24,907 nucleotides of DNA, from positions 1 to 24,907 of the IMG/VR virus record IMGVR_UViG_3300008110_000843; one strand, written 5' to 3'. Position 1 is the first letter of the stretch. Each line of letters opens with the position of its first letter. Below the pieces are notes generated by a model that was given only the letters and a program-made list of their open reading frames with translations, ran no database searches and was not told the origin of the DNA. Below, piece by piece: positions 5,030 to 24,809 of the stretch. The position numbers were made by a program, and so were the translations under genes. Origin of the DNA: a virus.

Positions 5030-5030
5030 C

Positions 5031-5822
5031 CTACCTCCCCAGGTATTCTAGCAATGCCTCTGACCAGTGCCGCATCTTCGGCAACTTCGTGTTCTTCAGG
5101 TTGCCCCATTCTGGTCGCGTCGTATCCTTGCGGGTCACTGGCATTATCTTGTATTTGTTACCAACCTTCTCGCGTACAAAACGAGCGAGCATCGCCCAGT
5201 CGGTCGTGCCCTCGTTCACTACATGGTACACACCACCTGGAAGGTCGTCAACTGCCAATGACACTAGCGCCCTGGCTGCGTCGGGCATGTACGTCGGTCG
5301 GAAGTGCTGGTCAATCGGCAGTTCGAGGTTCTTAAACGAAGATGCCACGAAATCCACGAAGGACGCCTTGAACGGCGACTTCTTTGGACCGAACGGGCTG
5401 CTGATGCGGGCGACCGTTCCCCCGTTCTCCAGCACAGCCTTTTCCCCTTCGAGTTTGCTGTGTCCGTAGACGGACAGGGCTCCCTTGCTTGGCTCATCCT
5501 CGTGAAGGAGGCGGTTCTCGCTGTTAAGGTCGTAGACGTAGTCTGTGCTGATGTAGATCTGCTTAAACCCAGCAACCGAGATAAGCCGAGGAAGATTCAC
5601 GTTTGCTTCGATCGCCGTGTGTGGCTGTTCCTCGCAGAGGTTGATGTCACGCTGCGCTGCGCAGTTGATCACCGCCGTTGGCTTCGCGTCCGTAATCAGA
5701 CCGATCAACTCCTCGTAGTCCGCCCAATGATTTCGACTAAGGACGACATACTTGATGTCTCGGCTGTCCAACTCTTCCTGAACATGTTGCGATGCCTGCC
5801 CACTCCCTAGGATGACAATCAC
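5031..5822 (-). CDS. dTDP-4-dehydrorhamnose reductase-like (RmlD-like SDR)
   Basis: Product of 263 aa. RmlD reduces the 4-keto group of dTDP-4-keto-L-rhamnose with NAD(P)H. Landmarks: GSGQAS at the N-terminus (6-11), INCAAQRDINLCEE (52-65), the STDYVYD strand (92-98), YGHSK (Y119, K123) and the ISSPFGP segment (140-146). It is slightly shorter than the roughly 290 aa of bacterial RmlD. The Gly-rich loop GSGQAS departs from the usual GxxGQLG. GTG 5822 overlaps the HAD stop (GTGA), with AGGAG seven bases upstream. With the RmlC-like gene near position 1500 it suggests a deoxysugar pathway; RmlA and RmlB are not in the window. Confidence 0.75.
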   Translation of the reverse strand: MIVILGSGQASQHVQEELDSRDIKYVVLSRNHWADYEELIGLITDAKPTAVINCAAQRDINLCEEQPHTAIEANVNLPRLISVAGFKQIYISTDYVYDLNSENRLLHEDEPSKGALSVYGHSKLEGEKAVLENGGTVARISSPFGPKKSPFKASFVDFVASSFKNLELPIDQHFRPTYMPDAARALVSLAVDDLPGGVYHVVNEGTTDWAMLARFVREKVGNKYKIMPVTRKDTTRPEWGNLKNTKLPKMRHWSEALLEYLGR

Positions 5823-7355: not shown

Positions 7356-7601
7356 CTATTTACCAACCTCGAGGAACCGCAAGGCTACGGTAACAATTGT
7401 ACCGATTGCGCTTACAGCAATCCCTATTCTCCATCGTAGCGAAAGAGAGGAGTCTTGTCTAGTCTCATTAGCCGCTTCGTAACGGTGCTGAAACTCTTCG
7501 ACGTCTCTTAGCCGCTCTTCGATTCGGTCTAGGCGTTCAGAAAGTTCTGAGCGGACCTCGTTGATAGCGCTCAGGAGGGAATGAAAATGAGAGGATGTCA
7601 T
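7356..7601 (-). CDS. Coiled-coil membrane protein, XhlA/holin-like
   Basis: Product of 81 aa. Residues about 12-45 are a charged heptad-rich coiled coil (including SELSERLDRIEERLRDVEE), and residues 58-75 form a single hydrophobic helix followed by a short charged tail. This layout matches XhlA/hemolysin-type phage lysis accessory proteins, which sit at the membrane beside a holin. No endolysin is identifiable in the window, so the lysis role is inference. ATG 7601 overlaps the tail-hub stop (TAATG). The purine-rich lysine codons of that gene supply a GAAGGGAAG stretch upstream. Confidence 0.65.
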   Translation of the reverse strand: MTSSHFHSLLSAINEVRSELSERLDRIEERLRDVEEFQHRYEAANETRQDSSLSLRWRIGIAVSAIGTIVTVALRFLEVGK

Positions 7602-9748: not shown

Positions 9749-9934
9749 TACGGCAGTGGCGCTGGCAGTAGCAATGGAAATATTGCCGACAGAGGTTGTA
9801 TCCTTGCTGAAGACGATAACGCCAGTGAACGAAGTATCGACCGAACTCGTGGCGCTGTCGTAGACAGCCGCTGAGATCGTGCGGGTCCTGGTTAGGGTAA
9901 GGTCCGCAGTCGAACTGGTAAACTGGATGTAGTC
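9071..9934 (-). repeat. Three tandem Ig-like protein repeats (about 95 aa each)
   Basis: Repeat 1 is about 9934-9641, repeat 2 about 9640-9356 and repeat 3 about 9355-9071. Each starts with a strand and TSS (DYIQFTSS, REVHFTSS, YHIVITSS), has an internal SxTFS/TLTQSGTG-like strand, and ends in a Thr/Ser-rich strand (QSFDVT, TTFTIQ, QSLDIT). The first crosses the reading-frame break. Confidence 0.7.
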
Positions 9935-9961
9935 AAACGCCGCTACCAGTGTACGTCGTAG
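9749..9961 (-). other. Upstream in-frame extension of the tail hub, no standard start codon
   Basis: The hub frame stays open for 71 codons above TTG 9748, back to a TGA at 9964-9962, without ATG, GTG or TTG. The extension includes DYIQFTSSTADLTLTRTRT, which aligns with REVHFTSSTATIAAGFSKT of the next repeat. It is therefore real protein-coding sequence that must be reached by a frameshift from the upstream gene, by a non-standard start (a CTG occurs at about 9949), or was disrupted by an indel. Confidence 0.7.
9932..9941 (-). promoter_or_regulatory. Candidate +1 ribosomal frameshift site
   Basis: The distal tail gene ends GGC GTT TGA C; the next protein's frame reads GCG TTT GAC across the same bases, a +1 shift. 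This resembles the prfB (RF2) site CUU UGA C, with a weak UGA-C stop context. However, Val-tRNA re-pairing on UUU would have a first-position mismatch, and no strong internal Shine-Dalgarno is seen, so a sequencing indel is a serious alternative. Confidence 0.45.
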
Positions 9962-10865
9962 TCAGCGTAGTAACTGCGTCGTCGGTTGGCGGGATTGATC
10001 CGAAATTATAGACCGCGGTATCGATGACGTCTTGCCTCAGCGTCGTTACGTACGGTCCTCCAGCGGTAGACCGAAGACCCCTAGACACAGTCTGGTTCTC
10101 AAAGTCTACAAACCATCGAACTTCGTTGGTTGCCGTCTTCTCAATGAAATCTAGGTTGTTTAACTTGATGACCTGAGAGTCCATTGTAAATGTCACCGAA
10201 GCAACCGTGGCTGCGGCATAGGACAGGGCAGATGAGTAGATCAATTCAAACGTTGGGTACGCAACCGCAGACCCAAGGTTTGGCAGAGATGTCGTTGCCG
10301 ACGAAGACGTGATGTTAATGGATCGTTCGGTAGACGATAGGCGGTATGGCTTTTTTGCCACCAGCGTAAATCCTACCATGGCGGCAAACCCCTTGGCGCT
10401 CACGCCGATGGACTGGGAGGATGTAATTGTTACCTCTGGTAGGCTTGCAGGGCGAACCAGCATCATCATTTCGATGAACCCTGTGGAATGATTTGAAGTG
10501 TCGATGGTTGCTTGCGAGAATGCAAGTTGCCTAAATCCGTAGTCCGCCTCATACCTGCGCGGGATAGGACGAAGGGCGTCAAGAAGAGCCTGAACCTTGT
10601 CGTGCATGTCGCCAGTAGAGGTACCAAAGACGCCGCAGACAATGGACAGGGAACGTGCACCTAGGTAGGTATCGGCAACGTCGACACCATCTCGTAGTGC
10701 GCGCTTGTCGATATAGCCAACCAGCGGGGTCTCGTTAAAGCGAGCGGACATGACCTTATACCCGCCGCGAGGGGCGGGTGTGGTCACGTCTGACGCTGCG
10801 ATGGAGTTAAAGTTTAGGGTTGTTCCGTCAGCGACCTGGTAAGTAATCGGTCGATTAAAATCCAT
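9933..10865 (-). CDS. Distal tail (Dit)-like protein
   Basis: Product of 310 aa. The N-terminal half carries GGYKVMSARFNETPLVGYIDKRALRDG-type strands and a segment around LLDALRPIPRRYEAD (111-125), similar in layout to distal tail proteins that join tail tube and tip. The C-terminal half is a strand-rich domain with WFVDFENQTV and a final strand TTLTTTYTGSG that stops abruptly. In this family a further strand normally closes the domain; the next frame supplies DYIQF at exactly that point. ATG 10865 overlaps the connector stop (TAATG). A generic tail protein is the alternative to Dit. Confidence 0.6.
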   Translation of the reverse strand: MDFNRPITYQVADGTTLNFNSIAASDVTTPAPRGGYKVMSARFNETPLVGYIDKRALRDGVDVADTYLGARSLSIVCGVFGTSTGDMHDKVQALLDALRPIPRRYEADYGFRQLAFSQATIDTSNHSTGFIEMMMLVRPASLPEVTITSSQSIGVSAKGFAAMVGFTLVAKKPYRLSSTERSINITSSSATTSLPNLGSAVAYPTFELIYSSALSYAAATVASVTFTMDSQVIKLNNLDFIEKTATNEVRWFVDFENQTVSRGLRSTAGGPYVTTLRQDVIDTAVYNFGSIPPTDDAVTTLTTTYTGSGV

Positions 10866-11500
10866 TACCCAAGCCTCCGCATCTTGCGGAGACGGGTTTC
10901 CTCTCGCCTCACGCGCTGTTGATTAGACAGTGCGATCTGGTTCATGGATAGGGCAGAGACGTCAGAGTTCCCTGACTGGACTTGCCACTGCTGGAACGCC
11001 ACACGGTCGGAGAGCAATCGGCTAAACGCTTCAGCCTGCGCCCATACCCGCACAGCGTTGATCGCCGTGACGTCCATGTCCGTGGTGGTGGAGTCGGATG
11101 ATAGTTGGATGAACGTGCTATACCCGAAGATACGCAACGTCCCAGGGGACGAGAGGGTGTAGTGCGGCGGCAGGAAGAGAATGTTATTATGAACTTCCCA
11201 GCCAGAGTTCGGACCGTCAGACGTGGATGGCAGGACAGTCTCTTTGAACTTCCCACCAGCGTCGTACGAGTCTACTCGGAATACCCAACTAACGTCAGAC
11301 AGGGCAACGGAGAACACCGAGCCAGATACTGGCTGTGTAAATGCTGTCGTCTGGATTGATTCTTTTGGGTAAATCCCATTCACCCAGTCAACGCCTGAGT
11401 TGATGAGGTCGGTTACCTCGCTATCGCTCCACGTTGCCCCGTTAGGATCACGAAGGTCTCGACGGACCATTGTCCGAATGCTGCTTAGTGTCTCTGCCAT
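10865..11500 (-). CDS. Head-tail connector/adaptor protein
   Basis: Product of 211 aa. The N-terminus (MVRRDLRDP, WSDSEVTDLINSGVDWV) follows the helix pattern of gp6/gp15-type phage connectors that dock under the portal. It is followed by a strand-rich middle and a helical, Arg-rich C-terminus (RVRREETRLRKMRRL) suitable for nucleic-acid or portal contact. ATG 11500 with GGAAG close upstream lies inside the end of the glycosyltransferase gene, overlapping by 53 bases. It continues the structural block that the glycosyltransferase interrupts. Confidence 0.65.
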   Translation of the reverse strand: MAETLSSIRTMVRRDLRDPNGATWSDSEVTDLINSGVDWVNGIYPKESIQTTAFTQPVSGSVFSVALSDVSWVFRVDSYDAGGKFKETVLPSTSDGPNSGWEVHNNILFLPPHYTLSSPGTLRIFGYSTFIQLSSDSTTTDMDVTAINAVRVWAQAEAFSRLLSDRVAFQQWQVQSGNSDVSALSMNQIALSNQQRVRREETRLRKMRRLG

Positions 11501-12722
11501 GCTTCCAAATCCCCTTATTCTCTAATGCCCACTTAAAGGCGTCCACCCACTCTAGTGCTCGATCTTTGTAATCGTATTCCTTTAGCACGCGCTCTTTGGC
11601 TGCCCCAGCCAACTGCTCGCGTAGGTCTTTACTGCGCACGAGCGCCTTAACAGCGTCATACCATTCCTGGCGACCCTTGGCAACCATGCCGTCAACCCCG
11701 TGACGGACCATAGAGTACGGAGCCTCTCCGTACTTAAAGCGTTCGCCGATGAACGCTGCCCCGACCATTGCGTACTCCAGCCAGTGGAGTTCCGACTTGC
11801 ACTTGTCGAACGAATCTCCGCCAAGCGGAGCAATTCCTATGTCTGCGTGGCTGCCCGTTAGTATCTCGGCAAACTTCCTAATGTTCTCAACGTACGGGTA
11901 TGCTTCGTCAAAAAACGGAGCAATGACATGCTCCGTGCCAGGGTTTACCCCAATGAAGACATTCCACAATTCCTTGCGCATGTCCTCGATGGCTTTTCCT
12001 GCGTATCCGCCTTCCCATTTCCCCCCGACTCCGCTAGGGTATCCAGCGTAGTCTCGCATTCGTGCGGTGCTACCGTAATAGACCACGCGAGGTTTTTCGC
12101 CACCATGCTGGGGACGAGAAGCATTAGAAGTATAGATTGAAGGATCGATTGCATTGCGGATAACCCTAATGTTATTGTTGAGATAAGAATACGCATCTTT
12201 AATTGGTCCTGTGCTTACCGTAACAAGATCTGCTCGTTTTGCCATACGCTCAATGAGCGGTCGTTCTGCCGCTACGTCTGGAGCATATCCATTCCACGAT
12301 CGGATCTGAAAGTGATTGTCATCCGTCTCGTAGATCATCGCCTTTGTGTTGCTTTCGCTTTCGAAGGCTGGGTACATCCACTCGGTAATTGAGTCTCGTA
12401 CCTGCATCTGGTGCTCGTGACCCGTAATGAACTTTGGGTCTTTGCTTGCCGCACCACAAGTATTACACTTGGCGGAACAGTTGTAGTATCTGCGGAACAT
12501 CACTAGGTCTGCCCAGTCGATGTCGCTGGTGTCCACTGACAGGAGACCCTTCGCCATTGCCTCCTGCTGGCTCATGCCCTTCGCCTCTTCCTTGGCGATA
12601 AAATTTACTTTGTCAATATGCCGAACATTGACTCCAGCCTTCTTCCATTCTTCGTCATACATGTGACCCCGAAAGTAAGCGCACGGTCCCTGCTCCGCAG
12701 TACCCCATACAAGAATATTCAT
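11448..12722 (-). CDS. GT-B type glycosyltransferase (GT4/GT1-like)
   Basis: Product of 424 aa. The N-terminal domain has IYETDDNHF (130-138, the phage-type E-x-D-D segment) and a cysteine cluster C82-x3-C86-x2-C89 with nearby His102 and His104, a probable metal knot. The C-terminal domain has the sugar-nucleotide-binding helix SELHWLEYAMVGAAFIGE, followed by HGVDGMV and an AGAAKERVLKEYDYKDRA end typical of GT4 enzymes. It transfers a sugar from a nucleotide donor to an unknown acceptor. Its site between capsid and connector genes suggests decoration of the virion. It has its own promoter and a GAGGAG ribosome binding site four bases before ATG 12722. No membrane segment is visible. Confidence 0.8.
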   Translation of the reverse strand: MNILVWGTAEQGPCAYFRGHMYDEEWKKAGVNVRHIDKVNFIAKEEAKGMSQQEAMAKGLLSVDTSDIDWADLVMFRRYYNCSAKCNTCGAASKDPKFITGHEHQMQVRDSITEWMYPAFESESNTKAMIYETDDNHFQIRSWNGYAPDVAAERPLIERMAKRADLVTVSTGPIKDAYSYLNNNIRVIRNAIDPSIYTSNASRPQHGGEKPRVVYYGSTARMRDYAGYPSGVGGKWEGGYAGKAIEDMRKELWNVFIGVNPGTEHVIAPFFDEAYPYVENIRKFAEILTGSHADIGIAPLGGDSFDKCKSELHWLEYAMVGAAFIGERFKYGEAPYSMVRHGVDGMVAKGRQEWYDAVKALVRSKDLREQLAGAAKERVLKEYDYKDRALEWVDAFKWALENKGIWKHGRDTKQHSDNGPSRPS

Positions 12723-12819: not shown

Positions 12820-13791
12820 TTAGACTGCGACCGTAGCCTGAGTCTTCAGGATGCGGTAACGGGCGCCTGCATTGTCGAGCAGGAGCGAACCGAATCGCAT
12901 CTTGTAGCCAACCAGTGCCTTCTGTGCCAATGGGTCGGTGTGATCACCGCCTGGCGCAACGAAGTACGACTGGAGCGTCTGCGAGTCACCAATGGTGTAC
13001 GCATCTGGACCAAGGAAGAGCGCCGTGTAGACGTTCCCGCTTGAAGCACCAGCAGTTGCATAAACCTTAGCGTCCGAAGACACAATGAAGCGCACGCCAG
13101 CAAACTGACCGATCTCATTCGTGAGAAGCGGCGTGTTGTTGACGTACTTGTTTGCCTCGATCCAGCCGCTCACGCTGGTGTCTGACACGAGGTCATACTC
13201 CTGCGAAGGGTGGATGATGCAGCGATACGTGCCGTCAGCAAACTGAGGAACGTTCGCACCCTTAAGGCGGGCAACCATGTTCTTGACGAACGCGCCCGTG
13301 AGCACGCCCGCTGCGGCGACCGCGCTGTTCGCCGTGTTAGCGGTCAGCGTGGTTGCACCCGTTGCACCGAAGACGGCGCTGGTGAGTGCGGTTGAGTGAA
13401 TCTCGTCGCGGACAAGGACGTCCATCGAGCGGGTCGCATTGTAAGCAATGCGCTCAGCGGCGATAGAAATCAAGTCATGCGGTGAGTCGATCTGGGCGAG
13501 GTCCGAAACCGCGACCGTAGCACCGTACTGCTTTGCAGTAAAGAACTCGGACGAGATCGTCAGTTCGCCATCGGTTGGGGCAACGCCTTCAGAAAGCGCC
13601 GTCGTGTTGACCGCGAGGTCAGCGTAACGTGCGTAACGGAGGGTGTTCGTGCCCTTAATGAAGCGAGCAGGGACGTAAAGCCCTGGCATCGCGTGGACGG
13701 CACGTGCTCGCAGTTCTTCCGCGGCTCGAGCAGAAACAAGTTCCTGTACGAGATCAGAAAAACCCGAGGTTGCCGTAGTGGTGGTAGCCAT
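12820..13791 (-). CDS. Major capsid protein, N4-gp56-like family
   Basis: Product of 323 aa. It forms the icosahedral shell. The C-terminal 70 residues (VYTALFLGPDAYTIGD, YFVAPGGDHTDPLAQKALVG, YKMRFGSLLLDNAGARY) match my recollection of the N4-gp56 family of HK97-fold capsid proteins, as does the N-terminal RYADLAVNTTALSEGVAPTD. The ATG at 13791 has AAGGAG seven bases upstream. It follows the scaffold gene by 16 bases and is followed by a strong hairpin, as expected for a highly expressed gene. Base composition looks GC-richer than the two giant genes upstream. Confidence 0.88.
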   Translation of the reverse strand: MATTTTATSGFSDLVQELVSARAAEELRARAVHAMPGLYVPARFIKGTNTLRYARYADLAVNTTALSEGVAPTDGELTISSEFFTAKQYGATVAVSDLAQIDSPHDLISIAAERIAYNATRSMDVLVRDEIHSTALTSAVFGATGATTLTANTANSAVAAAGVLTGAFVKNMVARLKGANVPQFADGTYRCIIHPSQEYDLVSDTSVSGWIEANKYVNNTPLLTNEIGQFAGVRFIVSSDAKVYATAGASSGNVYTALFLGPDAYTIGDSQTLQSYFVAPGGDHTDPLAQKALVGYKMRFGSLLLDNAGARYRILKTQATVAV

Positions 13792-13807: not shown

Positions 13808-14368
13808 TTATCTACTAAATGGATTACCAAGAGCCTTCAATCGTTCACCGATCTCTGCACTCGTTGGCTTTGCCTTTTCCACCACGGGCTCTCGTCGTGG
13901 ATTGTTTGGATCAATGCGAGGCTCCGACTCGACCTCAGCAACGCGGGAGTCAAGGAACTTCTCAAAGGCGGCTGCTCGAGCCTCCTCGTCCAAGTTCGCA
14001 GTGTCCTGGCGGAACTGTGCGTAGAGTGGGTGCTGCCTTGCGAGCCGCTCCTGACGGGCTTCATCTTGCTGTCGAGCAAGAGTGTCCTCTAGTGCCTTGA
14101 TCTTGAGTTGAGCCTTCTCGTATTCCGAGAGATTTTTCTCTTCGATCTCAGCCTTCCACCGCTTCAGGTCATCGGCTTCCTTCTTCAAGGCGTCGAGTTC
14201 CTTCTTGGTGGCGGTCAGGGCTTGGTCCTTACCAGCCAGCCGCTTCTTGTAAGTGGCGACGTCCTCGCCCTCAGCCTGAGTGGGCGTCTCCTCGACGGCT
14301 GCTTCAACAGCCTCGACGGGAGCGGTAGCCGACTCTACTGGAGCCTGAGTCACGACTTCTTCGGGCAT
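13808..14368 (-). CDS. Capsid scaffold protein
   Basis: Product of 186 aa. An acidic Ala/Val/Glu-rich N-terminus (1-37) is followed by a long charged coiled coil (about 40-125, including KKELDALKKEADDLKRWKAE) and a Pro/Arg-rich C-terminus. This is the usual build of scaffolds that template capsid assembly and are then expelled or degraded. Position immediately before the capsid gene supports the call. ATG 14368 has AGGAGA six bases upstream. No protease domain is visible, so it is a pure scaffold. Confidence 0.8.
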   Translation of the reverse strand: MPEEVVTQAPVESATAPVEAVEAAVEETPTQAEGEDVATYKKRLAGKDQALTATKKELDALKKEADDLKRWKAEIEEKNLSEYEKAQLKIKALEDTLARQQDEARQERLARQHPLYAQFRQDTANLDEEARAAAFEKFLDSRVAEVESEPRIDPNNPRREPVVEKAKPTSAEIGERLKALGNPFSR

Positions 14369-14387: not shown

Positions 14388-14404
14388 CCCCAGATTTTCT
14401 GGGG
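14388..14404 (-). other. Hairpin in the leader before the scaffold gene
   Basis: CCCCAGA, loop AAA, TCTGGGG: a 7-bp stem in the 43-base gap between the 1207-aa gene and the scaffold gene, ending just before the ribosome binding region. It is not followed by a T-run on the coding strand. It may be an mRNA-stabilising 5' structure, a processing site or a weak terminator. Confidence 0.45.
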
Positions 14405-14411
14405 TTAATTA

Positions 14412-17400
14412 TTATTGTCCGAAGCGATTATACTTCGGGTCGTCTGGATTTGGAATAACCTCTCCAAACGTATCTTCAATCGCACGCACAACAACAGATG
14501 CAGATCCGACGATTGTTCCCCGTCCAATCTGCTCATTGATCCTGCGCAGTGCATCATCCCATTGAACGCCCTTACCCTCTGACCCTGGCTCAATCGCGGA
14601 CTTTCGCATCCACGCTGGGACACTGAAGCCGATCTGAGACGGGATCGCTGGGAACAGCATGTTGATGAAGTACAGAAGATCTGGCTGGCTGTTAATGAAG
14701 TTAACAAAGCCGTCGTCTCCATACTCCAACTCCTGCTGCACTGCCTCGGAGATTTCGCGGTAGGCGTTGAATCCAGCGCCTAGTCGCTCCCCACCGATAA
14801 GCGGCGTCTTTGCGGGAACAAATGGAATCCTCGTGAATAGAGCACGAGAGAACTCTGGGATAATTTTCGTCGTCATGTATGATAACGGATACACCCCTAG
14901 GAATGGGTGATTGAACGATCGGACGATATACGGGATGTCTTGTGCGTAGTAGATCGATCGGTTTGCTACCTTTGATCCTTGATCGAACGCATACTTAAAT
15001 GCATCGATAGCCTCGTAGTATGTCTGTAGTTCTCCTTCCGTTGCGTTTGCCATTCGTTCAGCAACGTGCTTTGCGGACAGATCGTCAATATACTTCATCG
15101 CAGTCACTGGATTGTTTCTAATCGAGTAGTCAACTGCAAGATTGTACGCAATCTCATACGGATCGTCAGTTCCATAAAACTTCTTTAAGTTCTCAATCGT
15201 CTTTGGGGCGCGAACCTCTAGGTCCTTGATAAAACGTTCGGCAGCCTCTCGGGAAGCAATCTTCTCGAACGCACCCCTTTTCCTGCCACCGACGTCCGTA
15301 ACAAACTTAAATGCTTTGGTGTTGTTGAGTCGATCAAGCACAGTCATGAAGTCTTGATTTCTATACCCAACCTCTGCCGTTGTGTGCATCGTAGCGCGCA
15401 TAATCGACTGCTGCATGTCGCCAAACTCTCGGATGACTGATCGCCTGCCAGAGAATGCTCTTGCGATAATCCTAGACTTGTTTTCTCCAATAATTGCATC
15501 TTGCGTGTCTCCGTAGATACCGCGTAGGTACTGGAAGAACTTAGGCTCAATGTTCTCTTGAACAAAGCGGAAAAATGGGTTTAGGAATGAGAACCTAAAT
15601 AGCGGGTATGCAAAGTCTGTAACAATCATGACCCACGGAGCCTGTGTCTTAATGCCAGCAGTCAGCCTCGGGACAATACCAACCTGGGTAAGGTCGCCGT
15701 CGTATGCACGGAGGAGTGCTCGCAGGGCTGGGTTTCTTTGCGTCCCAATCCCCTTGGCAAGCCGCTGGTATGCTGCCTCGCCAAGCGTTGTGCGGGCAAT
15801 CCTGTCAACATCTCCAGTAATTGTAGAGATACCAGCAAGACCCTTGACTGAGATATTCTTTTCAGTCGATGCCCTATGCAATGCAACCCACAGGTCACGA
15901 GCGTCGTATCGTGAGACACCAACATTTGCAGATGTGAGCAGGAATCGCTCGTAGGCTCGCTGTCGAATGGTTGCCGATCTTCGCTCTCCAAACGCAGTCT
16001 GCACAATCTTCTGGAATGCGTTTCTTTTATCTGCAAGACCAGTCGTGGCGTCGAGCGCAATTCCAGGCTTAAAGACATCGTCAGCCATGTCAGCAAACGG
16101 AGCAACAACCTTTGTTACAATCTCTCGACCAGACGTAGTCTCGATAACATCGATGGTCTCTTTCAGACCGCCTTCTGGCGCAAGCGCAAGTCGGTATCCA
16201 ATCTTGGCTGCACGACGCTGAAGATCCTGTACCGATCGTGGCAATTTCTTTATTGTAGCGTTGTCTATGACTGTAACCTTTATTGCGTCATCGTCAAGGA
16301 ATCGCAATACTCGTTTTGCATCAAGTTCCTCTAGCGGCGTGTTCCCGAACCGAGCATACAACTCGTCGTATTTGCTGATTGCAGCCCTTAGTACATTTGG
16401 AAGTTCAGCCTCGCTTGCTCCACTAATCGCCTTTTTTAGTGCCGCAATTTCGATTTCTGTAAGCGATCGAACGCCAGCAAGGGTTAGCCTCTCTATGAAA
16501 TCAATTTGCTCAACGGTCTTTGGTCCTTTGGAAATACCATTTGCTCGGATCTCTCCGACTTCACGGCGAACCCTACCAAACGCCTGCTGTCGGCTCCATT
16601 CAAGTGCGTCAAGCGCATCTTCACGAGCCTTGGCGCCAGCAGATGCAGCACCGTTTACCCTTCCCATGACTGATCGTACGATTGGCGCAGCAGCCTCGTC
16701 AGAAATACCGAGACCATACTTAATCCACTCCCTAACCTGGATTTCTGCGGATGCAACGTCGTCAACCAAGGGATTAAGTTCAAGTTTATTCTCTCGGATT
16801 ATCCGTGATGCGTCTGCGTCAATATCATCGGTAAAGTGTTTTCCGCGAGCCTTAAGGACTTCGGCGGCAGTTCTTTCGCCAACTTCGGCTGTTACAGTTC
16901 GCTGTTGGATTCTTCGCTGAAGGACGGTAACTGCTTGAAACGCTTCTTCTTCTGTAATTCCGCCGCGAACCCTTTCAACAATCTCATCAAATCCAGCAGG
17001 GTTGTCTGGGAATATTGAATCCCAGATCTCACGAGCCTTTTTCAAAGATGCGACTTTTTCTCCCTTTGCTGCAAGCCTCGGATCTACCGATGTAACGATT
17101 ATATTGAAAACATCCTCTGCGCTTTCACCAGCAGACAACATCGAGTCAGCGACAAACCCATTTCTTGCAGCAGATTTTTCAAGCCCAGCAAGAACAGAGT
17201 TAATGTTGTTTGAAGCCTCTTCACCAAGGTTGAGCGTCTTACCGTTGACAACCTTCTTCACTGAGCCAGTAACCGTATTGAGTTCATCCCAGATCTTGGT
17301 GTTTACCGATGCACGAAGGACGGTTTGAGCCCTGTTTGCAGCAATCTTTGCCATTGCTGCCTCAGCATTCGTTCCAACTTTCAACGTTGCATTCACGCCC

Positions 17401-18035
17401 TTGGCAGCAACAGAAAATGGCTTAGTAAACCAGGTTAGCGGAATGTAGTTGAGCGGGTCAAGAACGAGGGACAGCGCAAGAGCGCCAAACCCGTCTCCGT
17501 ATGTCTTTCCGCTTTCTTGAAGTTTTGCCGCTGCATCACTGTGCTTACCCTGTCGAATGAGGTCGCGTACTTCGGCAGGAAGTTCCTGGAACGCTTCGGT
17601 GCCCTGTTTTCTCGTTCGAACGCCAATTTCAGCGACTCCGCGCTCAACGATGTTTCCTGGCAGCGCAAGCGCACTAAGCGCCACATTGCCAGCGCCCTCC
17701 AGACCCTTAATTGGGATGTTTGCTACGTCGCCAATCGTTGGTCCGCCAGGGATTCCAATCTTTGATACCGCATCCGTTGCTCCGCCAATGAAATCTGCAA
17801 TTGGATTCCCAATGAATGGAACGGAACGTACGAGACCGCCAGCGAGACCAGTTGCGGCACTGGCTAGTTGACCAGCGGCAGATGTAATGTCTTCTGGCTT
17901 ACCACCAAACGACACGTCCAACTTTCCAACAGACGAGTTCTGTGTTTGCGTGTACGTGTTTATTGCAATCTTTGGAATTCTTACTGATACCGAAGAACTT
18001 CTTGCCCCTCGGTTTGGGTCAATAATGGACGGCAT
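14412..18035 (-). CDS. Giant virion-associated protein of unknown function (1207 aa)
   Basis: Largest protein in the window. The N-terminus (about 50-135) is Gly/Ala/Ile-rich and weakly hydrophobic, with TGLAGGLVRSVPFIGNP and VALSALALPGNIVERG; the middle is long and helical with many charged repeats; aromatic-rich segments occur near residues 800-850 (DFAYPLFRFSFLNPFFRFV) and 1050-1100 (SFNHPFLGVYPLSYMTT). Size, position between portal and scaffold, and possible membrane-active parts fit an internal ejection protein injected with the DNA. No lysozyme, peptidase or polymerase motif was seen. ATG 18035 overlaps the preceding stop (TAATG). A tape-measure-like role is an alternative. Confidence 0.6.
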   Translation of the reverse strand: MPSIIDPNRGARSSSVSVRIPKIAINTYTQTQNSSVGKLDVSFGGKPEDITSAAGQLASAATGLAGGLVRSVPFIGNPIADFIGGATDAVSKIGIPGGPTIGDVANIPIKGLEGAGNVALSALALPGNIVERGVAEIGVRTRKQGTEAFQELPAEVRDLIRQGKHSDAAAKLQESGKTYGDGFGALALSLVLDPLNYIPLTWFTKPFSVAAKGVNATLKVGTNAEAAMAKIAANRAQTVLRASVNTKIWDELNTVTGSVKKVVNGKTLNLGEEASNNINSVLAGLEKSAARNGFVADSMLSAGESAEDVFNIIVTSVDPRLAAKGEKVASLKKAREIWDSIFPDNPAGFDEIVERVRGGITEEEAFQAVTVLQRRIQQRTVTAEVGERTAAEVLKARGKHFTDDIDADASRIIRENKLELNPLVDDVASAEIQVREWIKYGLGISDEAAAPIVRSVMGRVNGAASAGAKAREDALDALEWSRQQAFGRVRREVGEIRANGISKGPKTVEQIDFIERLTLAGVRSLTEIEIAALKKAISGASEAELPNVLRAAISKYDELYARFGNTPLEELDAKRVLRFLDDDAIKVTVIDNATIKKLPRSVQDLQRRAAKIGYRLALAPEGGLKETIDVIETTSGREIVTKVVAPFADMADDVFKPGIALDATTGLADKRNAFQKIVQTAFGERRSATIRQRAYERFLLTSANVGVSRYDARDLWVALHRASTEKNISVKGLAGISTITGDVDRIARTTLGEAAYQRLAKGIGTQRNPALRALLRAYDGDLTQVGIVPRLTAGIKTQAPWVMIVTDFAYPLFRFSFLNPFFRFVQENIEPKFFQYLRGIYGDTQDAIIGENKSRIIARAFSGRRSVIREFGDMQQSIMRATMHTTAEVGYRNQDFMTVLDRLNNTKAFKFVTDVGGRKRGAFEKIASREAAERFIKDLEVRAPKTIENLKKFYGTDDPYEIAYNLAVDYSIRNNPVTAMKYIDDLSAKHVAERMANATEGELQTYYEAIDAFKYAFDQGSKVANRSIYYAQDIPYIVRSFNHPFLGVYPLSYMTTKIIPEFSRALFTRIPFVPAKTPLIGGERLGAGFNAYREISEAVQQELEYGDDGFVNFINSQPDLLYFINMLFPAIPSQIGFSVPAWMRKSAIEPGSEGKGVQWDDALRRINEQIGRGTIVGSASVVVRAIEDTFGEVIPNPDDPKYNRFGQ
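14427..14432 (-). promoter_or_regulatory. Possible -10 element for scaffold and capsid genes
   Basis: A perfect TATAAT lies in the last codons of the 1207-aa gene, about 60 bases before the scaffold ATG. The -35 at 17 bp is poor (TTCCAA, 3/6). Position is sensible for boosting capsid expression, but the evidence is weak. Confidence 0.3.
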
Positions 18036-21022
18036 TAAACGCCACCCTTCCTTCCGCTATTAATTGTAGTTGTTGGCGGGGTCATGCCCATAAAGGTTCC
18101 AATTCTTTCTTTTGTGGAATCGCCAGAAACCCCCTTAAGGGATGTAGATCCAACCCCCATGATTGGCGGTGTCTTGATATCAATTCCGCCAAATGTCGAA
18201 ATCGGAGTAGAAATGCTTGCCCGCTCAGATGCCCTAAAGTCAATAATTGGCTGGGCATTAAATAGGTTTGCCTTTGGCTGCGTCATAGTTGGTGTGTACG
18301 TCGTCGGAGCATTTGCAGACGCAACTCTGCTAAGGTATGAATCGCTACTTGGGATTGGAGCATTCCTGAAGAACTGATCCTGAATCAACTGTGCCGTGTT
18401 TTGTGATGACGGAGCCTTCTTTGCTACGTATGGCTTGACGTCTGGCAGGTCAAGCATTGACGAAACGTTGATTGTCTTGGGGAAAAACTGCTTGGACTCA
18501 TTGAGTGGTTTTCCAAAGAGTGCGTCAACAGTTGTGGCGGAATCTTTTCGAACAAAGACACCAGGTGAAGTTTGGGTATATGCGTCAGAATACGCAACCC
18601 TTGTGTACCTGGTTTTTCCGTCTGATCCCTTCGTGATAATTGTTTGAACCATTGGATCTTGACCATCAGTAGAACCTTCACCAATAAACTTTTTAAAGTC
18701 AGAAATCTTAGATTCGTATACGTCTGCCCCACCGACAACACTAGATTCTCTGGTAAGTCTGCTTTCACCGTATCCGACGTCGAATCGACCAACACGCTCG
18801 TTGTATATTGCAACTTGATCTTCAATCTTTTTCTTCTCTTCAGGGTCATCAAACGAATACGTAATCGCGTCGAGGATTGGCTTGGTGATTAGAGACTTTG
18901 GACCAGCATTCCTATATGAACCAGTTTTGTCGTTATTGATTGCATTCGTGATTGCAAGTGCTTGGTCAACCTCAACCACGTCCTTGTTTCGCTCCCTAGG
19001 AACAACGGCACCACCCTTGATAATTTTCCCGTTTACGATTTTAGTTGACGGGTCAAGGGCAAAGGTAATCCTTACTGGATTTCCAGTGTCATCATATTCT
19101 GGAGCGCCACCGTTGAGCATCTTAATTGGGGGAGCGGTGTATGTTTTTCCGTCAGCACCAACCCATACCCGAGTATCTGGGTAGTAGAAGCCCCAATCTG
19201 CACCACCAATCTCGGACCCATTGAGTGTTCCCTTAACTGGGATTCCCTGTCGGATCACTGGCGTCATCTTCCCGTTTGCATTTAGTTCAGCAAAGGTATA
19301 TTCTCCCTTCGCCTGATCAGCCTGACGAATGCCAATTGTAGTTCCGATCCCGTTTGAATCCACAAATCGAACTGCCTTCCCAGTTTTAAGAAGCGCGGAC
19401 ATTTGTGTGGTCTTAGCAGCCTCTTCTGACTCAATTTGGCTATTTGTTCTGTCGTCACCATCGGCTGACTGCTTTGGAAGGATATAGTCAATTAGCGTAG
19501 ACCCAATGGCGTCAATTGACCCACCAGCACCGCCAACCTCATATACCGCCTGTTCATTGGAAATAAGACCAGCAATAGCACTGCTCTTCGTTGAAGCAAT
19601 ACCCTTGCCAAAGGACGCGGTGGTGTTCCCCTTTAGGAAGTTAAGCCATTCTGCGTTAATGTTTTCGATAACAGAGTCATCGCCATTTGCCTTACCAATA
19701 AGTTCGATTTTCTTGTCAAATGCATCTTCATAGTCTTCAAGTGTGGTATCTTGATTTGTATATCGAGCAAGTTCTACCGAGTCATTGCGAAGACCCATTG
19801 CCTCCCCTGGGTCAGCACCGATTGCCTTTGCTGTTGCAACAAGACCTTTGCTGTTATCCCTGTATTCATTGAGCGCGGCGTCGAAGTCTGCTTGCGCAGA
19901 GGGATTGATATCAAAATATCGAACCATAGCAAATGGGTCCGCTGCAAGAAGGCTGTTTAGCGTTACGCCACCAGTCTGATCTCGAAGAGATGATGCGGCA
20001 GCGCCAGTCACATAAACAGCAGCCTGGGCAGCAAATTGGTCAAGAACGCTTCGAGAATCGTTTGCATTTGCAAGCCTTGACTGATATAGTTCATTTCCAG
20101 CCTTGACCTTTAGACCAGAAAGAGTATTGTTATATGAGATGATGTTGCCCTTAATTGAGTTATACAACTCGCCGCCAGTAATACCAGCAGCCTCCATCTC
20201 AGCCAACTTACTCTTTGCCCACTCAATGTAGTTTTCAGTCTTCTTAATCTGTTTACCAGTTGACTTGTCTTTGGCAGCGTTTACCTTATTGTATTCGACG
20301 TCAACCTCTGCGTTCCAGATGGTTGTAAACATCTTATTCTTAAGGTCGAATGCAGTTGCAGACTCAGGGTCAATCCCTCGGAATGCAGCCTCTACTCGGC
20401 TCTTGTACTCAGAACCAGAAAGCATACCGCTGCTTAGTGACGTAGCCTCTCGGTCCATAATGGTGTCTGCTCGGTAAACGAGGGCATTCTCCTGCACCGT
20501 GCCTTCGAGCAGCCCAATTGCAGCGTCCGTCTTGCTAAGAAGTTCTTCATATGTTACAGCGCCGTTCTTATACTGACCGCCAACAATCTCTACATACTCA
20601 GCAGTCTTTGACGTTAGGACAGCCTGAAACTCTGCGCGCTCCTCGTCGCTTAGTTCGCCGCTAGAGAGAAGAGACGAGATCTCATCGTAGAAGTCCTCGA
20701 AGTTGTCGCCCATGCTTGCGTTGAATGAACTGGTCGCAGCCTGAACGTTTCGAGCACGCTCCTGTCGAAGCGCACTCTCTCGCATATTGACATAGTATGA
20801 ATATTCAGCAGAGTTTGGATCAAGACCCTGTAGGCGCGAGTCGACATACGCCTCGATATCAGTCCCAGTTGGAACTGCCCCACCGTACTCAGTCTGGTCC
20901 TGGAATGCATTAAACAGAGCACGCTCGTTCATCGAGATGCTCTGTTGTACGAGACCACTGATAAACGAACTGAGGTTAGATGACCCAGTCGTTGCTCGTC
21001 CAAATCGTCCACGTCGTGCCAT
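18035..21022 (-). CDS. Large virion-associated protein of unknown function (995 aa)
   Basis: Product of 995 aa. The first 450 residues are helical and charged (including NMRESALRQERARNVQAAT). From about 460 on it is Ser/Gly/Asn-rich with possible strands (for example GWGFYYPDTRVWVGADGKTY-like segments near 620), and the C-terminus is long, Thr/Ser/Pro-rich and probably disordered. It follows the portal with a TAATG overlap and precedes the 1207-aa gene in the same way, so the three are probably translated together. Likely a structural or ejected internal protein. No enzymatic motif seen. Codon choice looks more AT-rich than in the capsid gene. Confidence 0.6.
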   Translation of the reverse strand: MARRGRFGRATTGSSNLSSFISGLVQQSISMNERALFNAFQDQTEYGGAVPTGTDIEAYVDSRLQGLDPNSAEYSYYVNMRESALRQERARNVQAATSSFNASMGDNFEDFYDEISSLLSSGELSDEERAEFQAVLTSKTAEYVEIVGGQYKNGAVTYEELLSKTDAAIGLLEGTVQENALVYRADTIMDREATSLSSGMLSGSEYKSRVEAAFRGIDPESATAFDLKNKMFTTIWNAEVDVEYNKVNAAKDKSTGKQIKKTENYIEWAKSKLAEMEAAGITGGELYNSIKGNIISYNNTLSGLKVKAGNELYQSRLANANDSRSVLDQFAAQAAVYVTGAAASSLRDQTGGVTLNSLLAADPFAMVRYFDINPSAQADFDAALNEYRDNSKGLVATAKAIGADPGEAMGLRNDSVELARYTNQDTTLEDYEDAFDKKIELIGKANGDDSVIENINAEWLNFLKGNTTASFGKGIASTKSSAIAGLISNEQAVYEVGGAGGSIDAIGSTLIDYILPKQSADGDDRTNSQIESEEAAKTTQMSALLKTGKAVRFVDSNGIGTTIGIRQADQAKGEYTFAELNANGKMTPVIRQGIPVKGTLNGSEIGGADWGFYYPDTRVWVGADGKTYTAPPIKMLNGGAPEYDDTGNPVRITFALDPSTKIVNGKIIKGGAVVPRERNKDVVEVDQALAITNAINNDKTGSYRNAGPKSLITKPILDAITYSFDDPEEKKKIEDQVAIYNERVGRFDVGYGESRLTRESSVVGGADVYESKISDFKKFIGEGSTDGQDPMVQTIITKGSDGKTRYTRVAYSDAYTQTSPGVFVRKDSATTVDALFGKPLNESKQFFPKTINVSSMLDLPDVKPYVAKKAPSSQNTAQLIQDQFFRNAPIPSSDSYLSRVASANAPTTYTPTMTQPKANLFNAQPIIDFRASERASISTPISTFGGIDIKTPPIMGVGSTSLKGVSGDSTKERIGTFMGMTPPTTTINSGRKGGV

Positions 21023-23265
21023 TATGCGGGTACCTCACCTTCGGGCGCTGCGTTTTCTGCGAGCGCGTTTTCTGGGGTAGCCTCTGCTGGAGGCTGTGCT
21101 TGATTCTCTGGCTGGTTAAGCGACTGCGTACCAGCCGCTGGTGCCTGAAGGGTACGGGCGGTATTCGCCACGCTTGCCTGCTGTTGGGCGAACTGTTCGG
21201 CAGCCGCCTGCTGCTGCTGGATCCCCATCTGCTGGAACATCTGCATCAGGTTCGCCATTGCCATGACGGATGATGGGTTGAGGGTTGCATCGGTCTGCTC
21301 CTCGCGGATGACAATCATCTCGCCCTCTGGGTCTTCTACGCCCACACGATCCATTGCGCGTTCTGCGCTCCAGATGCGGTTTTGGACAAGGTTGATTGCT
21401 GTCTGTGCCAGTTCGAGCGTGTCTCGTGGCGTGAGTTCTGGCGGGGTGATGTCGAGTCGGTAGTTTCCACCAAAGACAAGACCAACCTCTGGCTGCTTTG
21501 TCTCCCACATCTGTGCGCACATCTTCCACACCTGCTTAATCCAGGAGTAGAGCAACTTGCGCTTTGGGGCAATGCGTGCCTCATAGTTGGCGACGAGAGA
21601 CGCGATGGCACGGGATGACCCAAGCACGCCCGAAGGGGCGAGCCCGAGGAGGAGGTCATTAAGCCCCGTAACCACCGCGATCTCTCTGTCGACTCGTCGA
21701 TTATAGTCTTCGATTTGGAACTGAGGAATGAATGGGGAGATCGATCGGATCTCATTTCCAGGTCCAGGTGCAGCCATCTTCCCAGGCTTTGGGATCGCAT
21801 TGGCTGGAACTTCGTCTGGCGCTTCTGGTCCGACCAACTGGAACATCTGTCCACCGATAACCGAGTGGATCATCTGCGCCTGATTGGTGATGCGCTCGTC
21901 CTTCTCGCGGAGCAACTGCTCCACATCGTAAAGTTCTGGCTTACCGTATGGGCTTCCAGGGACTTTGGCGTTTGCTAGAAGAACGTACGGGATCTCACCG
22001 CGGTATTCTGCGTGTCGGCTGTTCTTAACAAGTGTATTGCCGACGAAGATTGCGTTGTAGACTGTTGGAGCCTTGCCAGGTGCTCCTGGAACCTTGTACC
22101 AGTAGTCATACACCTCGACCTGCTGCATCTCGTACGGCGTCTCGCGGCGGAGCGGGTTGCGCTCAAACTGATTCTGGTAGACGTTGGCAATCGGGTCGTC
22201 ATGCGTGGATGCCGTGTAATTGTACCACTTGCCGCCCTGCTGGGTGGCGACGACCTTGATGCCGTAGTCCTCTTCGACAGCCTGCGGGCTCATGCCGTAG
22301 GTGTAGAGCGCCCAGTCGAGTCGGCTGAAGTCGGACATACCAAACCCAAGGTAAAGGTTTTCTGGCATCTCAACGATGCGTAGGCGAGGGAGGTTATTCT
22401 CCGCGTCCCAATAGACCTTACCAGCGGTGTATCCGTAGAGTGACTTGATGAAGCAGGCGTCCTCAAGGAGCACGTCAAACTGATTCTCTTCTGCCCATCG
22501 GAAGAAGAGACGCTCAGCGTTTGCTGCCATAAGGCGAGAGTCCTTGTCCTCGCCTGCGGGAATATAGTTGATGACAGGCATGACCGCCTGCAGCGATGCG
22601 GGAATGTTGACATACGCGGCGTGCACGTTGACTGAGACGTGTGCTCGACCAGCGGTTCGAGCAGTGGCGTCGTCCGCCCAGTGATCGGCACCGCCAAGCG
22701 TGATGATGTTTGGATGGTAGAGATTGTCGAATCGACGGAAGAGTGCGCGAAGACGATTCTGCTCTGGCTCCGAGGTCTGCTTGCGCATGAGCACTTCGCC
22801 GAAAAGATTAAACTCGAAGTTGGTATCTGGGTTAACGTCCTGGACTTCGAGGCTTGTCTTGAGCATCTTGACGGATGCAGACTGCGTATCGGTTAGGCGT
22901 TCCATTTCAAGTTTGGCAAACCGCTTGTTCAGCGGTACGCCCTTGCCGCCAGCACTTGCATTCATTGCGACTGGTGACGTAGCGACCGCAGGACCCGTTG
23001 CTCGAATGCCGCTTGCCGCCTTCGTTACGGATCGAGAAGCAGCGCCTCGGGTGATCGTGGCTGGGGTGGCTTGCGTGACGAGTGGATTACCGCCGCCCAT
23101 AGGCTCTTGAATAACCTCACCCCTTGAAAGACGTCGAGCCTTGTCGACAGCCTTGCCGATTGACTTAATCTGCGCTGGCGTGGCGACATCTGGGTCAGTC
23201 GTGTACTGACCAGGGATTGCCCTGGTGCCCTGGAATGCGCGTGGGACGCCTCGAACTTTAGCCAT
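21022..23265 (-). CDS. Portal protein
   Basis: Product of 747 aa, similar in size to the N4 portal. It forms the dodecameric ring through which DNA enters and leaves the head. Residues 1-150 are an unusual low-complexity Ala/Thr/Gly extension. The core includes YGYTAGKVYWDAENNLP (277-293), SPYGKPELYDVEQLL (438-452) and the stem and channel region DREIAVVTGLNDLLLGLAPS (526-545) followed by SSRAIASLVANYEARIAP. The C-terminus (about 665-747) is Gln/Ala/Pro-rich. ATG 23265 overlaps the terminase stop (TAATG) and has GGAGG upstream. Confidence 0.85.
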   Translation of the reverse strand: MAKVRGVPRAFQGTRAIPGQYTTDPDVATPAQIKSIGKAVDKARRLSRGEVIQEPMGGGNPLVTQATPATITRGAASRSVTKAASGIRATGPAVATSPVAMNASAGGKGVPLNKRFAKLEMERLTDTQSASVKMLKTSLEVQDVNPDTNFEFNLFGEVLMRKQTSEPEQNRLRALFRRFDNLYHPNIITLGGADHWADDATARTAGRAHVSVNVHAAYVNIPASLQAVMPVINYIPAGEDKDSRLMAANAERLFFRWAEENQFDVLLEDACFIKSLYGYTAGKVYWDAENNLPRLRIVEMPENLYLGFGMSDFSRLDWALYTYGMSPQAVEEDYGIKVVATQQGGKWYNYTASTHDDPIANVYQNQFERNPLRRETPYEMQQVEVYDYWYKVPGAPGKAPTVYNAIFVGNTLVKNSRHAEYRGEIPYVLLANAKVPGSPYGKPELYDVEQLLREKDERITNQAQMIHSVIGGQMFQLVGPEAPDEVPANAIPKPGKMAAPGPGNEIRSISPFIPQFQIEDYNRRVDREIAVVTGLNDLLLGLAPSGVLGSSRAIASLVANYEARIAPKRKLLYSWIKQVWKMCAQMWETKQPEVGLVFGGNYRLDITPPELTPRDTLELAQTAINLVQNRIWSAERAMDRVGVEDPEGEMIVIREEQTDATLNPSSVMAMANLMQMFQQMGIQQQQAAAEQFAQQQASVANTARTLQAPAAGTQSLNQPENQAQPPAEATPENALAENAAPEGEVPA

Positions 23266-24809
23266 TAATCACTTCCTCCGTAATAGGAAAATACTGGGTC
23301 TTTGACTGGTTGATCTGGATTCCTCGATGCGTACCATACGGCAAGCGCGAGAGCCATTACTGCGTCTGTTTCAAGTTTCTTATCGTTAAGTTTGTACGAC
23401 AGCAACTGTCTTCGTAGGTCGTCCCATGGCTGTCCTCGCGGGAAAACCAGTTCTTTCTTGTCAAGCATCGACTTCAACGTCGCAAGGAGCACCAACTTCT
23501 TGGACTTAGTCCCACCGAAGTCGTATCCCCTGAGTGGCTTAATGACGTTGAACTCTTGCCGAAAGAGCCGACCGCCCATACCAGTCTCATCGACGATCGT
23601 TGTGCAGAAAGCGCCGTCCTGTTGATACAACAGTGCGTTCTCCCGAACCATGTTTACCACGGACGGAATAGTTTGCTTTCCAATTCGTCGTCTTGCTCGT
23701 ACTCCTCTAATTCGCTTTCGGTCTGAGTAATCGAGTACGACCGACCATGTTGAGTCAGAAGAAATACCTGGGTCACATCCCTGGACATAGCGATGTCCCC
23801 TTTGTGGCGGACATTCTGTATCAGTGTCAGGATCAAAGGATCCGTCGATGGACTGCGCTGAGAAGTATGCGTCTCGCGCTTCGATGAAGTATCCGTCGAC
23901 GTTTTGCGGGACGAGGTATTCGGCTTGCTGGCGGACGATCGCTTCAAAGTTTTCTTTGGTGAGTCCGTATCCAACATTTTCGCGGGTTGAAAGCCGAAAG
24001 GAGATAAACTGTGCATCCCGTCCTGGGTTTTCGGGATTTCCCATTTCCCAGAGGTCGGAGTAGTCGCCGATGCCTTCCGTCGGCGTTCCGATGAAGTGGA
24101 GCGGACCACCCGTGGAGAGGCGTCGGAGGTTGAGGACCTCTTGGTAGATCTCCACCAAGTGGGGCTCGAATGCCGCCTCGTCGAACGAGATCCCATTCAT
24201 GTCCTTCCCGAGAAGCGCCTTCGCTTTCTCCTGTGTCGTTCGGAAGTGAATGCTCGCCCCACCAACTACTGGGTGGAACTTAATCCAAAGGTATTCACCT
24301 CGGTACTTCTTGTCCAGCGTGGCAATGTTCCCGAGTTCCTTCGTCAGCGCACACCCTCTTCCCTTTTGGGCTGGGTGATTACCAGAGAGGATTGATGTAA
24401 TCTCTCGATGAACGAGTTCAGCAGTTTCTTGCTGGATTCCTACGTGGTACCATTCGTACGGGATGTTTGACCATCGTCGGGCGTCTGAGGGATCGTCAGG
24501 TTTTGGCTGTTGAATGCCCATTTTGTACAAGGCGTGGTGAAGGCAGAGGATCGCCATCGCCATCGTTTTCCCCGCACGATTTCCCGCGGATACAACCGTC
24601 GTAAGGTATTTTGGTCGGTATCCCGAGTCATCGCGCTCCGCGCAGGCACGCCACCAGTCAATTTGTCCTCGGTGCCCATCGATATTGAGCCAGCGCCGAG
24701 CAAAGAACTCGATGTCAGTGCGACCGAGAGCCAGATCTCGTGCAGTTTCATTACCGACCACGAGTCCCCTTGTTACGTGCGCTGATCGCAGCAGCCTTGC
24801 TCCTGGCAT
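23265..24809 (-). CDS. terL: Terminase large subunit
   Basis: Product of 514 aa if ATG 24809 is used. ATPase domain: Walker A SAGNRAGKT (74-82), Walker B GISFDE (206-211) and coupling motif GTPTEG (241-246). Nuclease domain of RNase H fold: D346 (GCDPG), D407 (VDETGMGG) and D482 (TDAVMALALA). It cuts concatemeric DNA and pumps it through the portal encoded next. An alternative GTG start at 24761 has AAGGGG just upstream and would reduce the overlap with the preceding ORF to a few bases; the conserved domain is unaffected. The small subunit is not identified in the window. Confidence 0.93.
   Translation of the reverse strand: MPGARLLRSAHVTRGLVVGNETARDLALGRTDIEFFARRWLNIDGHRGQIDWWRACAERDDSGYRPKYLTTVVSAGNRAGKTMAMAILCLHHALYKMGIQQPKPDDPSDARRWSNIPYEWYHVGIQQETAELVHREITSILSGNHPAQKGRGCALTKELGNIATLDKKYRGEYLWIKFHPVVGGASIHFRTTQEKAKALLGKDMNGISFDEAAFEPHLVEIYQEVLNLRRLSTGGPLHFIGTPTEGIGDYSDLWEMGNPENPGRDAQFISFRLSTRENVGYGLTKENFEAIVRQQAEYLVPQNVDGYFIEARDAYFSAQSIDGSFDPDTDTECPPQRGHRYVQGCDPGISSDSTWSVVLDYSDRKRIRGVRARRRIGKQTIPSVVNMVRENALLYQQDGAFCTTIVDETGMGGRLFRQEFNVIKPLRGYDFGGTKSKKLVLLATLKSMLDKKELVFPRGQPWDDLRRQLLSYKLNDKKLETDAVMALALAVWYASRNPDQPVKDPVFSYYGGSD

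Follow-up and report, generated by a model that had tools for sequence, protein, structure and literature searches.

Ejection proteins are the least understood components of the phage virion because they are hard to recognize by sequence. The core proteins gp14, gp15, and gp16 of T7 are large and mostly helical, are encoded in a podophage virion operon, carry membrane-interacting segments, and diverge faster than the portal; identities of 34% for gp15-like proteins versus 69% for portals have been reported (PMC8954989). The virion RNA polymerase gp50 of N4, with gp51 and gp52, represents a giant cysteine-free ejected protein able to carry enzyme modules. Bbp10-type giants (phrog_9880) come directly after the genes for internal virion proteins or structural lysozymes in BPP-1-like podophages. 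Virion-packaged ADP-ribosyltransferase (ART) proteins delivered to the host are represented by T4 Alt and the polyvalent proteins, ART-bearing giants whose genes stand among those for virion components and for which injection is predicted (Iyer et al. 2017, PMC5512222). Gp10 of the Streptomyces podophage Stella (Beephvirinae) is a cysteine-free giant of 1637 amino acids (aa) found between the portal and a major capsid protein related to the one described below. Being large, helical, and cysteine free has previously been applied as a class marker to StenR_269 and Zobellviridae (PMC10747016).

The window analyzed here, an uncultured viral contig taken over its full length of 24,907 bases, encodes two giant proteins of 995 and 1207 aa, gp995 and gp1207. 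With high probability, these serve a short-tailed phage as internal virion (ejection) proteins that are coupled to the portal, packed in the head, and released through the portal and tail channel. This assignment draws on the podophage context, the exclusion of cysteine, the helical models, the rapid divergence, and the presence of relatives with enzymes of the injected kind. Like the T7 core proteins, the two are large, predicted to be mostly helical, encoded in a virion operon, and faster diverging than the portal, and they lack cysteine as do gp15 and gp16; gp1207 also has a candidate membrane-inserting segment. In contrast to T7, their genes precede the capsid gene and do not follow the nozzle gene, only two large genes were seen, and no transglycosylase domain was found in either, unlike in the T7 core proteins. 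A small third ejection protein resembling gp14 was not recognized in G001 and G002, two related contigs that jointly span almost the whole genome (about 42.5 kb); the giants found number two. Bbp10-type proteins are similar in being giant, nearly cysteine free, and encoded in a structural operon beside internal virion protein genes, but a domain of about 150 aa is shared only with some gp1207 homologues and not with that of the window, and the rest does not align. Gp1207 differs from N4 gp50 in that no polymerase was detected and profile similarity is absent. It differs from T4 Alt and the polyvalent proteins in having no recognizable enzyme and a backbone of a new family in which two insertion points are fixed. 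Stella gp10 has no detectable similarity to gp995 or gp1207.

Gene order, relatives, and tail genes

The genes of the window follow each other on the minus strand in the order terminase, portal, gp995, gp1207, scaffold-like protein, major capsid protein, glycosyltransferase, SU10-type adaptor, Dit-like protein, and second tail protein. The features on which the argument rests are as follows:

23265-24809, minus strand: terminase
21022-23265, minus strand: portal protein, 747 aa (phrog_156, E 1.5e-9; TAATG overlap with gp995)
18035-21022, minus strand: gp995, predicted ejection protein of channel/core type (ORF of 995 aa, ATG start)
14412-18035, minus strand: gp1207, predicted ejection protein, putative insert-free minimal form of a cargo-carrying family (ORF of 1207 aa, ATG start)
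14388-14404, minus strand: stem-loop in the gap between gp1207 and scaffold (CCCCAGAAAATCTGGGG, −11.7 kcal/mol, z −2.3)
13808-14368, minus strand: scaffold-like protein, 186 aa (precedes the capsid gene; helical, low complexity; 186 aa in nearly all relatives)
12820-13791, minus strand: major capsid protein, 323 aa, podophage related (Phage_capsid_4, E 3e-10)
9933-10865: Dit-like tail gene (PF05709, weak, E 0.0015)
7601-9748: hub-like tail gene

The original prediction had placed two genes of 995 and 1207 codons, stop-start coupled to the portal, between portal and scaffold. Both open reading frames are present there, and one-base overlaps within TAATG at the portal/gp995 and gp995/gp1207 junctions show that the coupling is real. 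Its remark that most phages have a small MuF-type protein and a protease in this place applies better to siphophages and myophages than to podophages, of which this appears to be one. The stem-loop CCCCAGAAAATCTGGGG is located where a step from low-copy to high-copy protein expression is probably needed, and it may be an element for mRNA processing or for such an expression step. In the window as well as in its relatives, a gene for a glycosyltransferase separates the capsid gene from the adaptor gene, and genes resembling nucleotide-sugar epimerases occur farther along (11448-12722, 1266-1838, and 4070-5822), which possibly points to virion glycosylation.

Viral contigs were scanned with the proteins and the portal. 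Of the loci encoding this portal, which number at least 112 and have portal identities of 57 to 100%, 80 were kept. About 30 distinct contigs are long enough to display the arrangement, and all of them carry portal, gp995-like, gp1207-like, scaffold, and major capsid genes with no exceptions, so that the arrangement is not due to chance. The gp995 orthologues (780 to 1018 aa) come after the portal in every relative, and the gp1207-like proteins range from 1189 to 2861 aa, next to scaffolds of about 186 aa and capsid proteins of about 323 aa. The two giants lie upstream of the scaffold, an unusual position for which Stella gp10 offers a partial precedent.

The capsid protein has its relatives in the podophages Page, API480, and Stella, and is matched by that of podophage StenR_269, while the adaptor belongs to the SU10 podophage family (PF24175, E 2.8e-7). 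Neither a major tail protein nor a tape-measure gene was recognized in the roughly 42.5 kb of G001 and G002, where Dit-like and hub-like genes come directly after the adaptor. In the window, too, these two genes come straight after the adaptor and no gene for a tail tube or tape measure was recognized, so that the tail would be minimal and unusual; the Dit/hub-like appearance of the two genes is unexpected in a podophage. The podophage capsid relatives and the lack of a recognized tail-tube or tape-measure gene point to a particle that is likely short tailed, as judged from its genes. With this gene-based assignment, the location of gp995 and gp1207 between portal and scaffold/capsid genes is that of an operon for podophage ejection proteins.

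One or both giants could instead belong to a long-tailed phage and serve as tape-measure or tail-lumen proteins, with their genes relocated upstream of the head genes. The Dit-like gene next after the adaptor, a few weak matches to tape-measure proteins (phrog_167 or by fold), and the fact that the lambda tape-measure protein is also free of cysteine speak for this. It is nevertheless unlikely, given the podophage capsid relatives and the lack, in the window and in near-complete relatives, of any tail-tube, terminator, or chaperone gene between the adaptor and the Dit-like gene. Moreover, gp1207-like proteins of 1189 to 2861 aa lie beside structural genes that are otherwise alike and constant in size, and as tape measures they would imply tails whose lengths span more than a two-fold range. 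The tape-measure class thus fits poorly, and this reading, like the MuF and virion RNA polymerase readings considered below, ranks behind the assignment as ejection proteins.

Divergence and cysteine content

Compared with relative G014, the window shows identities of 86% for the large terminase subunit, 80% for the portal, 85% for the scaffold, and 94% for the major capsid protein, but only 24% for gp995 and 28% for gp1207. The two giants therefore diverge much faster than portal and capsid, in agreement with the pattern of T7 gp15-like proteins versus portals (PMC8954989). In locus L007 the portal is 100% identical to that of the window and the first approximately 70 residues of gp995 are nearly identical too, while identity is 70% over gp1207 and 57% over gp995. 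This pattern suggests that the giants are exchanged by recombination while their flanks stay fixed.

Cysteine is almost excluded from both families. Among 65 non-redundant gp995 and gp1207 family members, 2 cysteines occur in 69,946 residues, where about 412 would be expected from the rate in other open reading frames of at least 200 aa in the same genomes; portals and terminases of the clade contain 2.2 and 11 cysteines per 1000 residues, respectively. The same holds for established ejection proteins: T7 gp15 and gp16, P22 gp7, gp20, and gp16, and N4 gp50, gp51, and gp52 have no cysteine, and T7 gp14 has one. It also extends to the giants of BPP-1-like phages, Page, Stella, and API480, but is not seen in T7 gp11 and gp12 or in the portals of P22, N4, and lambda. 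In reference podophages (L034-L038 and L130-L143), 34 giant, lysozyme-like, and internal virion proteins contain 10 cysteines in 45,804 residues, and the exclusion appears general. Lack of cysteine alone is not decisive, since it is likewise seen in the scaffold and in some further virion proteins; together with the lambda tape-measure protein, these make it a mark either of passage through the portal or of a scaffold, and not of ejection alone. The finding reinforces a simple marker for ejection proteins in uncultured phages, namely, large, helical, almost cysteine-free proteins encoded beside virion genes.

Predicted structure and homology

Both proteins give large, mostly α-helical models, with gp995 also β-rich in parts, and the regions of low confidence are the termini of gp1207 and the C terminus of gp995. 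Gp995 contains no cysteine and was modeled with AlphaFold2 at a mean pLDDT of 76, with the following parts:

20873-21022, minus strand: gp995 residues 1-50, the best-conserved part (MARRGRFGRATTGSSNLSSFI...), mean column identity 0.60 versus 0.20-0.38 elsewhere
19385-20974, minus strand: gp995 residues 17-546, continuous all-helical block, pLDDT mostly 80-94
19043-19375, minus strand: gp995 residues 550-660, β-rich domain in the AlphaFold2 model
18143-18457, minus strand: gp995 residues 856-960, predicted disordered, pLDDT below 50

The conserved first 50 residues may be a segment that docks to the portal or procapsid. No strong membrane segment is present in gp995. A Foldseek search of BFVD retrieved one strong match for this protein, A0A6J5RZ15 of an uncultured phage (E 2.8e-14), and weak matches to an "internal virion protein B" (E 0.017) and to tape-measure proteins.

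The model of gp1207, which also has no cysteine, is helical, confident in a core spanning about residues 230-770, and weak at the termini, with a mean pLDDT of 59. Its description as a protein with hydrophobic and aromatic segments is a fair one: hydrophobic stretches are found at residues 57-75, 112-130, 182-200, and 1121-1139, and conserved aromatic motifs near residues 807-834 and 1036-1072. The parts considered here are as follows:

17781-17873, minus strand: gp1207 residues 55-85, Gly/Ala-rich and hydrophobic, candidate membrane-inserting stretch (19-mer conservation)
16416-16526, minus strand: gp1207 residues 504-540, insertion site 1, empty in the window (inserts in homologues)
15048-15083, minus strand: gp1207 residues 985-996, insertion site 2, empty in the window (inserts in homologues)
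14586-15035, minus strand: gp1207 residues 1001-1150, conserved C-terminal region (RSFNHPFLGVYPLSYMTTKIIPEF...LFPAIPSQ; 23-sequence alignment)

A hydrophobic 19-mer of only moderate hydropathy (mean KD of at least 1.3) starts at residues 45-79 in 27 of the 28 non-redundant gp1207 homologues, and the Gly/Ala-rich segment near residues 45-85 is kept in the same proportion (27/28) despite sequence change. In the C-terminal region, R1039, S1040, N1042, H1043, P1044, Y1049, P1050, S1052, Y1053, M1054, K1057, and P1060 are invariant over the 23 sequences.

Searches of Pfam, PHROGs, and PDB sequences with gp995, gp1207, and their family alignments retrieved nothing for the proteins of the window, and tblastn of both against 50,697 phage records gave no match. 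Profile and profile-profile comparisons with proteins of T7, P22, N4, BPP-1-like phages, Page, API480, Stella, and two metagenomic podophages remained at background level, and Foldseek against the PDB returned nothing at E<0.001 with the model of gp995 or that of gp1207. The remote-homology and structure comparison with T7 and N4 proteins that had been proposed as a check thus yielded no sequence, profile, or fold match, and a clear match to a known nonstructural family, looked for as grounds for abandoning the prediction, was not found. Membership in the T7 gp15/gp16 homologous family proper finds no support, as homology was not detected at any of these three levels. This does not by itself exclude membership in the functional class, because N4-like ejection proteins are likewise without detectable similarity to those of T7 (PMC12633501).

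Enzyme inserts and a proposed delivery mechanism

The long gp1207 homologues consist of a common backbone with inserts at two places. At site 1, about 700 to 920 aa are inserted in L093, L108, L109, L094, L098, and L080, and the insert of the first three contains the domain of about 150 aa common to the Bbp10/phrog_9880 giants (HMM E 1e-19 to 1e-25). At site 2, about 511 aa in G014/L053 and about 355 aa in G015/L062 are both GNAT-like, with Pfam E values of 9e-4 (G014) and 6e-4 (G015) that fall slightly below the curated cutoffs and a PHROGs acetyltransferase match at 2.7e-6. In G010-G012, site 2 holds about 970 aa, including a divergent flank, with an ART domain that lies above the Pfam cutoff in two of the three (E 1.9e-12 and 3.4e-7) and is matched more weakly in G010 and L094. 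The four ART regions can be aligned along their length, and an E-x-E stretch and an arginine are retained in them, which is consistent at the sequence level with an enzyme of the R-S-E type. A subclade of L080, L094, L097, and L098 has gp1207 homologues with an ART domain that measure 2837 to 2861 aa where complete. Gp1207 of the window has neither the domain shared with Bbp10 nor the enzymes. The earlier statement that the two giants lack recognizable enzymes consequently holds for the window but not for the family, in which homologues have ART or GNAT-like domains. These relatives resemble the polyvalent class by virtue of those domains, but gp995 and gp1207 of the window were rejected as polyvalent proteins, which have two or more recognizable domains including enzymes, since no domain was found.

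The inserts also bear on whether the giants, as MuF-like or core proteins, serve as minor head components or in head assembly and are retained in the particle instead of being ejected. Their location between portal and scaffold and the coupling to the portal would fit such a role, but presumably host-directed enzymes are ill suited to a protein that stays behind, divergence is much faster than in other head proteins, and the MuF class is rejected, as no MuF domain was found in searches of gp995 or gp1207. Retention in the head is therefore rated as even less probable than a tape-measure function. The weakest reading makes gp1207 a virion RNA polymerase of the N4 type, the role proposed for the large cysteine-free protein of StenR_269, and is very improbable: size, lack of cysteine, and helicity are the three criteria of PMC10747016 and the StenR_269 capsid protein matches that of the window, but these criteria suit ejection proteins generally, and no match to a polymerase (Pfam, PHROGs, or PDB sequences) or to an N4 gp50 profile was obtained.

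Gp995 and gp1207 are thus best read as a new pair of ejection-protein families, with gp1207 as the minimal form of a cargo-carrying chassis. The original prediction regarded them as candidates for a new kind of ejection or core protein; the indirect evidence favors ejection, but it is the families that are new, and the kind is known. A more specific proposal, for which doubt slightly outweighs confidence, is that gp1207 is an empty protein-delivery chassis, cysteine free and ejected through the portal with gp995, with two fixed sites at which related uncultured phages would exchange enzymes that modify the host, and with a gene order unlike that of T7 or P22.

In the proposed mechanism, translational coupling would supply both proteins along with the portal, and they would be packaged inside the head, either at the portal vertex or close to it. 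They would exit by the portal and tail channel before or with the DNA and help it to cross the envelope. Gp995, being helical with a conserved N terminus and no strong membrane segment, could be a component of the core or of a periplasmic channel. Gp1207, with its hydrophobic N-terminal segment, helical core, and conserved aromatic C-terminal region, could enter or cross the inner membrane and reach the cytoplasm. This division of labor is a guess from the types of segment and about as apt to be wrong as right. In the relatives, gp1207 would bring an ART or GNAT-like enzyme into the cytoplasm, where it presumably acts on the newly invaded host. The clade thus presents an ejection-like pair at about 25% identity between nearly fixed neighbors, with putatively host-directed enzymes at defined points of one member. 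Since the enzymes are inserted at defined points in a diverged pair, the parts needed for passage through the portal and the parts that are cargo become separable by test.

In near-complete relatives, a run of small, very basic proteins is encoded upstream of tail-fiber-like genes (L026:309-4503 and L025:15697-18419). A scan of genome collections retrieved a weak (24%) gp1207-like match on a contig of a Phycisphaerae metagenome-assembled genome (MAG; L111:10001-10669), which is a possible lead to a host or provirus.
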